64,000 bases of DNA from Massilia sp. erpn (GTDB lineage Bacteria; Pseudomonadota; Gammaproteobacteria; Burkholderiales; Burkholderiaceae_D), in contig NZ_CP053748.1 in NCBI RefSeq assembly GCF_024400215.1, forward strand, positions 558,001 through 622,000. Reading direction: 5' to 3'. Under the pieces are notes generated by a model that saw only the letters and a program-made list of their open reading frames with translations, was not told the DNA's origin and did no database searches. How positions within the stretch are numbered: the first letter of the stretch is position 1; each line of letters starts with the position of its first letter. Shown piece by piece: positions 4,503-15,317 of the stretch. The translations under genes and the position numbers were made by a program.

Positions 4503-5876
4503 TCAGGCTGGTTTGCGCCGCATCCAGAACTGTTCGAGGTTGCGAATAATTTCCGTGCCATACATGCAGCGCGCCTGTTCGCGGCAGAAGGTTGCCAGGT
4601 AGCTGCGGAACTGCTCCAGCGGTTCGGTCGCGTGGCGGAAGGCCTTGCGGTTGCTGATGATGCCGTGCGAGCCCAGGTCCACCATCGAGGCCACGCCGCG
4701 CTCGATGGCCGCGTCCATCTCCGCCGCCGCCACCACCTCATCGACCAGCAGGCGCCCCTCGACGCTGTCGGCCGCCACCTTGTGGTTGCTGTAGATCAGG
4801 CGGTTCGCCAGGCGCCGGCCGACATACTGCGGCAGGCGCAGATTGGCGATGCCGGGGATGAAGCCTTCGGAGCGCGCCGGCAGCGACAGGAAGGCCGTCG
4901 CTTCGGCGATGACGTGGTCGCAGACCAGCAGCAACTGGCAGCCGCCGCCGATGGCGTGGGTATCCACCGCCGCCAGCCAGGGCTTCTCCAATCCCAGATC
5001 GGGAGCGTCGGCCCAAGGCGAACCGCCGCCCCACAGCCCCCGGTGCAGCTTGCTGACCAGGCCCAGTTCGCGCACCACATAGAACAGGAAGGGCAGCTGA
5101 CCCGCATACAGCTTGCTCAGGTTCACGCCGGAACAGAAGACGCGGCGGCCACGGTACTTTTCATGCTCCATAAAGCCGCCACGCAGCACGCCGACCTCGC
5201 TGCCCTCGTCGAGCAGCACAATGTCCACGGCCAGTTCCATAGCCTGCACCAGCTCTTCGTCCTCGGCATTCAGGCAGCGCGGATTGCACAGGGTCAGCTG
5301 CCCCTGCCGGCCCTGCCGCTGCAGTTGCACCAGTCCCAGATCCAGCATCTGGCCCGCCTGGTAGGCCGGCAGCAGCTCCTGCGCGCGCGGCAGCGGCAGG
5401 CGCATCGCCGCCATCAGGTGGCGGCCCACTTGCTGCTGGCCCAGCCACTGCGCCAGCACCAAGCCCAGGCTCAATTCATGGCCCAGCTTGTCGTGCAGGG
5501 ACAGTTCCGCATCGGCCGCCAGTTGCGCCGGCGTCGGCAGCAAGCCGGGGAAGCGGGCGGCGGCCAGCACCAGCAAGACTTCCACCCGCAGCGCCTCGGT
5601 ATAGTCCTTGGTCAGCAGGCGGTACAGGGTTTCGCCGTGCGCCGCGACCTGGGCCGCGCGCGCTTCGGCCACGGCCTCGCGCACCTGCCGAACCAGGAGC
5701 CGCTCCGGCTCGCCCCAGGCGGCGCGCGGCGGCAGCGCGGCCAGCATCGTCTCGCCTTGCGCGCACCAGTGACGCAGCGCTTCGCAGGCATCGTCCTGCC
5801 ATTGCGGCGCGGGCTGGGGCGCGCGCCGCAGCCAGTCCACCAGATCCGGCGCGGCATCCATCGCATCGCGCGCCAT
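4503..5876 (-). CDS. dpgC: DpgC-type (3,5-dihydroxyphenyl)acetyl-CoA 1,2-dioxygenase
   Basis: A 457-residue crotonase-fold protein with the long helical N-terminus (about 1-190) typical of DpgC rather than of ordinary enoyl-CoA hydratases (about 260). Family blocks: CNPRCLNAEDEELVQ, YRGRRVFCSGVNLSKLY, EKPWLAAVDTHAIGGGCQ, LPARSEGFIPGIANLRLP and a VEGRLLVDEVV tail. DpgC is a cofactor- and metal-free dioxygenase that turns 3,5-dihydroxyphenylacetyl-CoA and O2 into 3,5-dihydroxyphenylglyoxylate and free CoA. It starts 2 bp after the MaoC gene stop and is the last biosynthetic gene of the operon. dpgA, a dpgB-like gene and dpgD lie upstream in the same operon, which supports the call. Confidence 0.9.
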   Translation of the reverse strand: MARDAMDAAPDLVDWLRRAPQPAPQWQDDACEALRHWCAQGETMLAALPPRAAWGEPERLLVRQVREAVAEARAAQVAAHGETLYRLLTKDYTEALRVEVLLVLAAARFPGLLPTPAQLAADAELSLHDKLGHELSLGLVLAQWLGQQQVGRHLMAAMRLPLPRAQELLPAYQAGQMLDLGLVQLQRQGRQGQLTLCNPRCLNAEDEELVQAMELAVDIVLLDEGSEVGVLRGGFMEHEKYRGRRVFCSGVNLSKLYAGQLPFLFYVVRELGLVSKLHRGLWGGGSPWADAPDLGLEKPWLAAVDTHAIGGGCQLLLVCDHVIAEATAFLSLPARSEGFIPGIANLRLPQYVGRRLANRLIYSNHKVAADSVEGRLLVDEVVAAAEMDAAIERGVASMVDLGSHGIISNRKAFRHATEPLEQFRSYLATFCREQARCMYGTEIIRNLEQFWMRRKPA

Positions 5877-5878
5877 GG

Positions 5879-13198: not shown

Positions 13199-13926
13199 GT
13201 ATTCACCCTTTGAAAGTTTCGTTCATATAAAAGCGCTTGTGTAAAAGCTTCAAATTCGCGTTGCATGGGCACCGCTTCCACATCGAGCAGCTGCTTGGCC
13301 AGGCGCAGCGCCAGCGGATCGAGTGCGGCCGCCCGTGCCGCCCACGCCAGCGCCTGGCTTTGATAATCGGCGCCTTGATGCGCCACCAGTCCCCAATTAC
13401 AGGCTTCCAGCGCATCGAGGCGGCGCTGGAACAGAATCATTTCCTTGGCCCGTCCCAGCCCCACCAGCGCGGGCAGACGGCGCATGCCGCCGGCCGCCGG
13501 CGTCAAGTCCAGGCTCAGCTCCGGCAGCGCAAAGACCGCATGCGGGCTGCAGATGCGCGCATCGCAGGCCAGCGCCAGCTCCAGCCCGCCGCCCATGGCG
13601 GCGCCGTTGATGCAGGCCACGGTGGGCAGCGGCAGCGCCGCCAGCTGGTCGAAGACGGTGCGGCTGAGCAGATCGATGCCATCCTGAAAGCGCCGCTCCT
13701 TGAGCTCGTGGCGGTCGGCGCCGGCGCAGAAGGCGCGCTCGCCCGCACCGCAGATCAGCAAGGCGCGCACCTCAGGCCATTCCTTGAGCTGCCGCAGCGC
13801 AGCGAGCAGGGCTTCCAGCAAGGCCGTGTTGTAGGCATTGGCGTGGGCGGGACGATTGAGCTGGAGCATGCAGATATGCTCGTAGCCGGCCACGGCGGGC
13901 AAGGTCAGCAGCAGGTCCGCGCTCAC
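13195..13926 (-). CDS. dpgD: Enoyl-CoA hydratase/isomerase, DpgD-like
   Basis: 243 residues from GTG 13926, which overlaps the MATE stop as GTGA; upstream in-frame codons only run antisense through the transporter. Crotonase motifs: RPAHANAYNTALLEAL, FCAGADRHELKE (first oxyanion loop), INGAAMGGGLELALACDA (second) and FALPELSLDLTPAAGG with the catalytic-Glu region. In vancomycin-type clusters DpgD is the active enoyl-CoA hydratase that assists aromatisation of the DpgA product. Its direct coupling to dpgA supports that role. A general beta-oxidation hydratase is the less likely alternative. Confidence 0.85.
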   Translation of the reverse strand: MSADLLLTLPAVAGYEHICMLQLNRPAHANAYNTALLEALLAALRQLKEWPEVRALLICGAGERAFCAGADRHELKERRFQDGIDLLSRTVFDQLAALPLPTVACINGAAMGGGLELALACDARICSPHAVFALPELSLDLTPAAGGMRRLPALVGLGRAKEMILFQRRLDALEACNWGLVAHQGADYQSQALAWAARAAALDPLALRLAKQLLDVEAVPMQREFEAFTQALLYERNFQRVNT

Positions 13927-15317
13927 GCCGCACCGCCTTTCGCGGCCAGCGCCAGCGGCATGGCTTGCGCCAGACGGCGCGTCAGCAGCGCGTAGCGCGC
14001 AATCATCAGCACGGCGGCTGCGCTGAGGCCGATGACGAAACCCCACCAGACCTGCTGCGGCGCGGCCGCCGGCCCGTGCGCGGCGCGCCAGGCGAGCGGA
14101 AAACCGATCAACCAGTACGAGGCCAGACAGATCAGGAAAGGCAGGCGGGTATCCTTGAAGCCGCGCAGCGCGCCGCCGCAGGCGACCTGCACGCCGTCCG
14201 ACAGCTGGAAGGCGGCAGCGATCAGCAGCAGCGCGGCGGCCAGGGTGGCGACTTCGCGTTCGGCCGAATACAGTTGCGCGATCTGGCGGTGGAAAGCCAG
14301 CAGCAGCAGGGCCGATACAAGCATGAGCACGAGGCAGGCCAGCATGCCGCAGATGCCGCGCCAGCGCGCCTCGTCCAGCCGGCCCTCGCCCACGGCATGG
14401 CCGACGCGCACCGAGATGGCGGCCGCCAGCGCCATCGGCACCATATACATGATCGAGGTGTAGTTCATGGCGATCTGGTGCGCCGCGACGGCGCTGACCG
14501 AGATGGTGCTCATCATCAGCGTGACGGCGATGAAAAAGCCATGTTCGGCCAGCATGGTGCCGGCAATCGGCAGGCCAAGGCGCAGGATTTCAGCCATGGT
14601 CTGGCGCCGCGGACGGCCGCCCGGTGCGCGGCGCAACAGCGCCAGCCGCTGGGAACGGCAAACATACGCCAGCGCCAGCAACAGCATCAGCATCAGCCAC
14701 ATCGACAATGCACTGGCGACGCCGCAACCGATGCCGCCCAAGGCGGGCGCGCCGAGATAGCCGTACATGAAGACCACATTGCCGGCCACGTTGAACAGCA
14801 GGCCGGCGACGGAGATGCCGAGAATCAGGCGGGTCAGGCCCATGCCTTCCAGCACGAAACGGAACACCAGGAAGCAGCAGATGGCGGGGGCGCCCCAGGA
14901 GATGGCGCGCACAAAGCGCTCACCCATCCGCTGCAAGGCCGGGTCCATGCCCAGCGCCGCCAGCAGCGGCCCGGCCAGGAATTGCAGCAGCACCAGCATC
15001 AGCACGCCCAGGACCAGGGCCAGCAGCAGGCCATGGCGTACATAATCCCCCATCTGCTCCAGACGGCCGGCGCCATGCTGCTGCGACACAATCGGCGAGA
15101 GCGCGGTCAGCACGCCCTGGGCGGTGAGGAAACACAGCAGCCAGACATTGCTGCCGACGCCCACCGCCGCCAGGTCCATGCCGCTGATATGGCCGGCCAT
15201 CATGACGTCGATGAAATGCATGGCCGAGATCAGCAGATTGCTGCCGATCAGGGGCCAGGCCAGCATGGCGAGGGCGCGCAATTCGCGGCCCAGGGAAAGG
15301 GGGAAACGGCTTGTCAT
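13923..15317 (-). CDS. MATE-family multidrug/metabolite exporter
   Basis: 464 residues with about twelve hydrophobic segments. The N-terminus LAMLAWPLIGSNLLISAMHFIDVMMAGHIS and the mid-protein stretch LRLGLPIAGTMLAEHGFF are typical of MATE transporters, which expel cationic or aromatic compounds using Na+ or H+ gradients. As the first gene of the operon and coupled to dpgD by GTGA, it is the natural exporter for the product and possibly a self-protection device. No clear Shine-Dalgarno precedes ATG 15317 (AT-rich leader). A TATATG hexamer at 15389-15394 (minus strand) is a plausible -10 about 70 bp upstream. Confidence 0.9.
   Translation of the reverse strand: MTSRFPLSLGRELRALAMLAWPLIGSNLLISAMHFIDVMMAGHISGMDLAAVGVGSNVWLLCFLTAQGVLTALSPIVSQQHGAGRLEQMGDYVRHGLLLALVLGVLMLVLLQFLAGPLLAALGMDPALQRMGERFVRAISWGAPAICCFLVFRFVLEGMGLTRLILGISVAGLLFNVAGNVVFMYGYLGAPALGGIGCGVASALSMWLMLMLLLALAYVCRSQRLALLRRAPGGRPRRQTMAEILRLGLPIAGTMLAEHGFFIAVTLMMSTISVSAVAAHQIAMNYTSIMYMVPMALAAAISVRVGHAVGEGRLDEARWRGICGMLACLVLMLVSALLLLAFHRQIAQLYSAEREVATLAAALLLIAAAFQLSDGVQVACGGALRGFKDTRLPFLICLASYWLIGFPLAWRAAHGPAAAPQQVWWGFVIGLSAAAVLMIARYALLTRRLAQAMPLALAAKGGAA

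Follow-up and report, generated by a model that had tools for sequence, protein, structure and literature searches.

What might a bacterium make with the pathway to 3,5-dihydroxyphenylglycine (Dpg) where the enzyme that would finish this amino acid and the non-ribosomal peptide synthetase (NRPS) that would use it are both missing from the locus? The question is posed by an operon of eleven co-directional minus-strand genes in Massilia sp. erpn, at positions 4503-15317 of a 64,000-nucleotide stretch of contig NZ_CP053748.1 (positions 558,001 to 622,000) that we call the window throughout. DpgA-D make 3,5-dihydroxyphenylglyoxylate for glycopeptide antibiotics, and the HpgT transaminase converts this Dpg keto acid to the amino acid. 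In the operon, genes of Dpg type stand among genes for an alpha-oxoamine synthase (AOS), a CitE/RipC-like C-C lyase, a RipB-like MaoC protein and an ornithine cyclodeaminase-like (OCD-like) reductase, four activities to which we refer as the core. On balance we lean towards the view that its product is a ketomethylene (carbonylmethylene) pseudodipeptide, with an aromatic half supplied by the Dpg pathway.

A diverged Dpg operon without a transaminase

A preliminary description of the stretch, made from its letters, had reported eleven tightly packed genes, several with ATGA or GTGA overlaps, and their coordinates, strand and spacing are as it gave them: at five junctions the genes overlap (four times by 4 bp, in the ATGA/GTGA manner, and once by 16 bp), and at the other five they are separated by 2-46 bp. 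From 5' to 3' the genes are as follows, with model scores and cut-offs in bits.

13923-15317, minus: MATE-family exporter, first gene of the operon (Pfam MatE; TIGR00797 278, cut-off 147)
13195-13926, minus: crotonase-family protein, previously called DpgD-like (ECH_1; generic enoyl-CoA hydratase 183; DpgD 118, cut-off 400); start assigned to the GTG that overlaps the stop codon of the MATE gene
12128-13198, minus: DpgA, a type III polyketide synthase (3,5-dihydroxyphenylacetyl-CoA synthase; NF042429 460.5, cut-off 425; C144/H280/N313)
10864-12081, minus: AOS (PRK07505 538, cut-off 342; best PDB relative 8xha, Alb29, 1.8e-96); K251 is the predicted pyridoxal phosphate lysine
9781-10842, minus: TauD-family dioxygenase (Pfam TauD; HTD motif at residue 145; PDB 7n7v and FrbJ 5eqn)
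9020-9784, minus: short-chain dehydrogenase (SDR), 46-47% identical to the SDR that closes the core on a Rhizobium lusitanum plasmid
8247-8981, minus: DpgB-like crotonase (top NCBIfam model DpgB, 90, cut-off 140)
7362-8231, minus: CitE/HpcH-type C-C lyase (top models RipC/Ccl and CitE, both below cut-off; PDB 3qll, 4.6e-28)
6394-7377, minus: ornithine cyclodeaminase/mu-crystallin-family (OCD-like) reductase (PF02423, 8.5e-38; all 13 NCBIfam matches below cut-off)
5879-6397, minus: MaoC hydratase/dehydratase of RipB/mesaconyl-CoA hydratase type (NF038241 208, cut-off 340; PDB 8hgn, beta-methylmalyl-CoA dehydratase, 2.8e-35)
4503-5876, minus: DpgC-type arylacetyl-CoA 1,2-dioxygenase (NF042432 403, cut-off 530; PDB 2np9, 1.2e-88, active-site residues aligned)

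The whole block is present again in a congener, G048, with proteins 94.9-100% identical, and both an assembly artefact and a chance assembly of genes were rejected on that account. A housekeeping Obg-type GTPase encoded upstream has its nearest plasmid-collection match in Neisseria (66.7%), in keeping with the betaproteobacterium of the preliminary description.

How close is this operon to the canonical Dpg pathway? The protein families named in the preliminary description are all there, but DpgA, whose Cys-His-Asn triad is intact as described, is the sole operon protein to pass its curated Dpg cut-off. DpgC and the DpgB-like protein score below theirs, and the DpgD assignment is not supported, the second crotonase being better described by the generic enoyl-CoA hydratase model. 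Residues 28-452 of DpgC align with the crystallised DpgC 2np9, its E205, H238, R269 and Q314 falling opposite E189, H222, R254 and Q299 of that enzyme. As a control we used a congener, G017 (L026 8450-13928; L037), where a canonical dpgA-B-C-HpgT-D set comes right after large NRPS genes, with one transporter-like gene between these and the set and the aminotransferase between DpgC and DpgD. There DpgA (612 bits), DpgC (589) and DpgD (471), the three proteins scored, all exceed their cut-offs. Because DpgA alone passes in the operon whereas all three pass in G017, the operon is, as judged from its sequence, a diverged relative of the Dpg pathway and not its copy.

The operon lacks HpgT. With the G017 aminotransferase as probe, the top match reaches 30% identity across the genome and 29% within the window (45802-46671, about 30 kb from the operon). 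Of five plasmid Dpg loci, four (those of S. decoyicus, Embleya, S. globosus and S. cellulosae) have a 49-59% identical match to the same probe next to dpgA. These five were taken from nine plasmid records with DpgA, leaving out three further S. cellulosae records and Nonomuraea; neither the five loci nor the G017 stretch hold a match to the AOS or the CitE-like protein.

Nor is an NRPS close by. The preliminary description's "without NRPS" is true of the operon and its surroundings but not of the genome, where there are 23 condensation-domain matches (21 above cut-off), the nearest 1.12 Mb from the operon. A Dpg-NRPS cluster cut by the window edge was rejected, since no condensation domain lies within 1.1 Mb. 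A crude home-made reading of A-domain motifs returned no Dpg-like code in the genome, and none in Dpg-NRPS positive controls either. The earlier proposal of a Dpg-type operon that is not tied to a nearby NRPS and probably yields a small CoA-derived metabolite is supported.

DpgC homologues also occur elsewhere. A scan of genome contigs with DpgC as the single query protein returned one locus, in a Rhodospirillaceae metagenome-assembled genome; in 21 kb there, the DpgC homologue and crotonase cross-matches to it were all that was found. The DpgC homologues of G081 and G068 (39-43% identical) have no DpgA match in the surrounding 20 kb, and the G081 case suggests that DpgC-type dioxygenases act on other arylacetyl-CoAs. 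The G081 homologue (L024 9524-12259) adjoins a ligase that looks PaaK-like by eye.

The core recurs without Dpg genes

Among 12 AOS neighbourhoods, a CitE-like gene is present in 11, MaoC in 10 and an OCD-like gene in 9, DpgA in only two (the window and G048). A single genus accounts for eight of the 12 (the operon twice, an orthologous locus five times and another G016 locus once), so that the set amounts to seven distinct kinds of locus; it left out G892 and G930 (43-45% identity) and 130 of 132 plasmid records.

One Dpg-free core lies in the same genome (C1:1570574-1574132; L046 7574-11132), which carries a second AOS copy, 57% identical to that of the operon. Its order is CitE-MaoC-OCD-AOS followed by an EamA exporter, the block including EamA is conserved in G048, G016, G022 and G009, and we regard it as a candidate arphamenine-like cluster. 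Beyond the genus, an unannotated cluster on Rhizobium lusitanum plasmid NZ_CP050307.1 (L053 5831-14446) reads AOS-CitE-MaoC-OCD-SDR, with a 4-hydroxy-2-oxovalerate aldolase (DmpG) and an acetylating acetaldehyde dehydrogenase (DmpF) nearby, both above cut-off. In G208, a member of a different family within the class, MaoC-OCD-AOS-CitE stand in a row on a 13-kb contig (L060 1337-4886; AOS 46% identical). A looser version in G071 (L059 110-10991) has AOS, CitE, MaoC and MATE together with a LeuA-like protein that ends near model position 384 of 516, and no OCD match. DmpG/DmpF in R. lusitanum and the LeuA-like protein in G071 possibly supply keto acids beside the core. The R. lusitanum cluster also holds a carbamoyltransferase, and that of G071 a 2-oxoglutarate oxygenase, an M24 peptidase-like protein and two proteins without a Pfam match.

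Relatives of the AOS as strong as these are rare. At E 1e-60 they occur in 5 of 74 genus genomes; at E 1e-100, own genome included, in 2 of 369 genomes of the class, 2 of 398 of the phylum and 4 of 399 of the order. Actinobacterial homologues reach 63-68% identity. Plasmid searches with CitE and MaoC led to six stretches. Four of these, on Streptomyces and Kitasatospora plasmids (L061, L062, L063, L064), carry a CitE-MaoC-GNAT block, in three of the four with an acetaldehyde dehydrogenase and a carrier protein; with no annotated AOS, they look like a separate small-molecule pathway and were set aside as a different system. The others are a CitE-MaoC pair in Tistrella and one unannotated Embleya stretch.

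Is the association between AOS and DpgA itself repeated? We paired protein matches to the two by identical length of their longest contig. Ten AOS matches pair exactly with a DpgA match, one pair being that of Rhizobium sp. BK650, and all ten are within the closest 19 of the best 120 of 627 AOS matches; about 0.4 exact pairings are expected by chance, because 17 AOS-DpgA pairs differ by 1-20 nt. Lengths shared with OCD matches are likewise seen for eight AOS and ten DpgA matches (one being a round 2000). In quick trees, all 12 DpgA-linked AOS fall in one 19-row clade (support 97), a clustering that none of 500 label shuffles equalled, and of the seven AOS in that clade without a paired DpgA four are on contigs shorter than 5 kb. 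The AOS-linked DpgA share a 44-row clade (support 95) that is separate from the clade of the five canonical DpgA (support 100). The AOS-DpgA linkage thus recurs, with its AOS side in one clade.

A proposed pathway to a ketomethylene pseudodipeptide, and its alternatives

In itaconate degradation, RipC/RipB-type enzymes reversibly convert a citramalyl-type CoA ester to its dehydrated form or to a keto acid and acetyl-CoA, and we suggest that the operon might couple this chemistry, run in the synthetic direction, to a Dpg-derived keto acid. DpgA and its crotonase partners would convert malonyl-CoA to 3,5-dihydroxyphenylacetyl-CoA, which DpgC would oxidise to the alpha-keto acid 3,5-dihydroxyphenylglyoxylate, with no transaminase step to Dpg. 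The CitE/RipC-like enzyme, putatively a keto-acid/acetyl-CoA condensing enzyme, would add a CoA-borne acetyl (or malonyl-derived) unit to the keto group, MaoC would dehydrate the resulting aryl-malyl-CoA and a reductase (OCD-like and/or SDR) would saturate the dehydrated ester. The AOS would then condense the 2-aryl-succinyl-type CoA ester with an amino acid, with loss of CO2, to give H2N-CHR-CO-CH2-CH(Ar)-COOH; TauD (and SDR) might tailor the product and MATE export it. A keto acid is the type of acceptor expected for the CitE-like enzyme, and that would account for the missing transaminase. The closest relatives of two core enzymes, a beta-methylmalyl-CoA dehydratase for MaoC in the PDB and the RipC and CitE models for the lyase, lend support to such a scheme. 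We infer every reaction in the host, the step order, the identity of the reductase, the amino acid and the final product from gene content.

A number of observations weigh against the scheme. CitE, MaoC, DpgC and OCD score below the cut-offs of their nearest equivalogs, and the exact reactions are therefore not fixed. An OCD-type enzyme that reduces a C=C bond would, to our knowledge, be out of the ordinary. The core is likened to KtmA/B/C/F of ketomemicin biosynthesis by enzyme class and not by Ktm sequences, and the same holds for KtmF and the OCD family; the Pfam matches of the eleven proteins include no ATP-grasp ligase or amidinotransferase, of which the ktm cluster has both. Since Alb29, the closest solved AOS, uses L-glutamate according to an excerpt of PMC11906848, no particular amino acid can be assigned to the AOS. 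The core is also not always complete: the G071 locus is without OCD, the second G016 locus consists of MATE-AOS-CitE only, without MaoC and OCD, and the AOS of Rhizobium sp. N621 (45% identity) stands without the core. On the DpgA side, the AOS-linked label needs five changes on the tree, 44 of 500 shuffles are as low and 28 of the 44 clade rows are unlabelled; among the matches listed, DpgA P0122 and P0124 (84-89% identity) pair with OCD and no AOS, and that of Pandoraea sp. XY-2 (87%) with neither AOS nor OCD. Finally, lack of HpgT is not peculiar to the operon, for the dpgA-dpgC locus on the Streptomyces NBC_01340 plasmid (L069), which has a DpgD-like crotonase, has no HpgT match within 12 kb either, a finding that led us to lower our confidence slightly.

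Might the same genes serve another end? One alternative is that the AOS takes 3,5-dihydroxyphenylacetyl-CoA directly to give an alpha-aminoketone (of the 1-aryl-3-aminopropan-2-one type), with CitE, MaoC and OCD serving a side branch or another substrate. AOS enzymes do accept acyl-CoA directly, dpgA and the AOS gene are adjacent and, in excerpts of PMC9239090 on dynaplanin, DynZ is proposed to link arginine with a unit derived from phenylalanine, dynZ and dynY alone being needed in a heterologous host. However, DpgC and the AOS would then be rivals for one CoA ester, and CitE, MaoC and OCD are found with the AOS where no DpgA exists, and we consider a direct route unlikely. Rather less probable still is that the OCD-like enzyme takes the place of HpgT, forming Dpg by amination of 3,5-dihydroxyphenylglyoxylate, for use by a distant NRPS or by the AOS. 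OCD-family matches include alanine dehydrogenase and iminosuccinate reductase, the genome does have NRPSs and, as seen above, one plasmid Dpg locus equally lacks a nearby HpgT; yet the OCD-like gene belongs to the core of seven neighbourhoods without Dpg genes, and the NRPSs lie more than 1.1 Mb away.

A third scenario would turn the operon around: CitE, MaoC and OCD might be catabolic, as in itaconate-like RipBC degradation, and the operon might degrade a compound rather than make one. That RipC and RipB are the nearest NCBIfam models speaks for this, but the eleven proteins include no CoA-transferase (RipA), malonyl-CoA is consumed by enzymes of DpgA type and the first gene of the operon codes for an exporter, so that we regard degradation as very improbable. 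Synthesis of a ketomethylene pseudodipeptide, with the keto acid as the branch point, is the account that we prefer.

If it is correct, the Dpg precursor gains a further fate, as a keto acid in a peptide-bond mimic and not as an amino acid for an NRPS or a ribosomally synthesised and post-translationally modified peptide (RiPP). Proteobacteria would also have genes for ketomethylene pseudopeptide chemistry, following a rule of a small core plus interchangeable keto-acid supply. Pseudopeptide enzymes of this kind make protease-resistant peptide mimics. The Dpg-free cores hold no NRPS or polyketide synthase (PKS) gene and may escape standard genome mining, like the dynaplanin cluster as portrayed in an excerpt of PMC9239090.

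A second arginyl-tRNA synthetase next to the operon

The preliminary description mentioned neither the missing transaminase nor the Dpg-free core paralogue, nor a further arginyl-tRNA synthetase gene (argS) located 104 bp downstream of dpgC. The features on this side of the operon are:

2551-4398, minus: second, divergent arginyl-tRNA synthetase (TIGR00456 379 bits, cut-off 262, positions 25-569 of 569)
2009-2332, minus: small LuxR/GerE-domain protein beside the second argS (PF00196, 1.1e-7), possibly a regulator
4486-15384 (ends approximate), no strand: segment absent from G016, which keeps the LuxR-type gene and the second argS at the site

The housekeeping synthetase is encoded at C1:892075-893709 and the second copy is 25% identical to it. 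An extra, divergent, full-length copy beside a cluster, with a separate housekeeping copy, is the pattern of a duplicated target, and the second argS is possibly a self-resistance copy. The idea of a resistant target is attractive because ketomemicins, arphamenines and dynaplanins are described as arginine-containing pseudopeptides in an excerpt of PMC9239090. In the openly licensed literature we found no such synthetase in biosynthetic clusters, and papers on inhibitors or second copies were, by titles and abstract openings, none of them on a bacterial cluster.

There are nonetheless reasons to suspect that the second argS shares the tRNA-proximal variable site with the operon as unrelated cargo, a possibility independent of the alternatives above and one that we think fairly probable. 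The gene and its upstream region occur in G016 without the operon, and its best match in the plasmid collection, from Cupriavidus necator (77%), has no operon genes within 12 kb at E 1e-4. Against this, the second argS is nearly as rare as the operon (at E 1e-150 in 3 of 74 genus genomes, and in its own genome only among the 399 of the order sample). It also lies next to the operon in the same orientation, and its G+C is similarly high (68.5%, compared with 66.3% for the operon and 63.0% for the window). G048 has the second argS together with the operon, and G022 has neither of these nor the LuxR-type gene at the site. This distribution, along with G+C, fits either joint arrival with loss of the operon in G016 or a synthetase that arrived first. 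Near the start of the window, 48 bp (1899-1946) match the tail of the tRNA-Pro(cgg) region some 3.9 kb upstream (L036 13000-13076), a trace of the sort expected from an integrated element, and the spot varies between congeners.

Taking the resistance idea to its limit, the operon could yield a ketomethylene mimic of an Arg-Dpg dipeptide, derived from arginine and inhibitory to arginyl-tRNA synthetase; the second argS would be the resistant copy and the AOS core a plug-in cassette fed by different alpha-keto acids (from the Dpg set, DmpG/DmpF or the LeuA-like protein) in a modular family of NRPS-free pseudopeptides in Proteobacteria. We consider so specific a proposal a long shot.

An extra argS also occurs on Roseibium aggregatum plasmid NZ_CP045635.1 (L101 9992-11710); it is 50% identical to the window's second copy, with an NRPS/PKS gene about 4 kb away and an MbtH gene about 5 kb away.

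Comparison with known systems

With the canonical Dpg pathway of glycopeptides and G017, the operon shares DpgA, a DpgB-like protein and a DpgC-like protein with aligned active-site residues; it differs in having no HpgT, no nearby NRPS, no protein that qualifies as DpgD and a DpgA outside the canonical clade. Xanthomonas Dpg loci come with NRPS and HpgT, according to an excerpt of PMC3849588. Pheganomycin-type clusters, represented by a 21-kb stretch of the S. globosus plasmid (L068), resemble the operon in that Dpg genes are present there and no NRPS is annotated. Unlike the operon, that stretch has an aminotransferase, an amidinotransferase, a PGM1-related ligase and a RiPP precursor, and no AOS or CitE-like match. 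The AOS has its closest solved relative in Alb29 of albogrisin.

Arphamenines are of Chromobacterium origin and have an Arg-Phe ketomethylene structure, with no Dpg part, unlike the product proposed here; no biosynthetic genes for them were among the matches listed in the openly licensed literature. A matching characterised cluster, which would have undercut the novelty claimed in the preliminary description, was sought in the same literature and none was found: among the matches listed on DpgA/AOS, ketomemicin, arphamenine, ketomethylene pseudopeptides and pheganomycin we recognised no Dpg-AOS hybrid. A Dpg building block feeding ketomethylene-type enzymes is thus a combination not found in the literature searched, although chemistry of this kind is already known.

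A close known system is ketomemicin (ktm) of Actinomycetota. Excerpts of PMC11943689 describe ktmA/B/C/F as encoding an aldolase, a pyridoxal phosphate-dependent amino-acid C-acyltransferase, a dehydratase and a dehydrogenase in an NRPS-independent cluster that also has an ATP-grasp ligase and an amidinotransferase, and call arphamenines structurally similar to ketomemicins. By enzyme class, the operon brings together the same core set (AOS, CitE-like, MaoC and OCD-like) and is likewise NRPS-independent. The "new type" of the preliminary description is therefore apt insofar as no matching cluster was found, but not for the core, which recurs without Dpg genes and corresponds to the ketomemicin activities as those excerpts give them. 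Besides the ATP-grasp ligase and the amidinotransferase, what sets the two systems apart is the aromatic residue, derived from phenylalanine or tyrosine in ktm and, on our preferred account, from the Dpg pathway in the operon.

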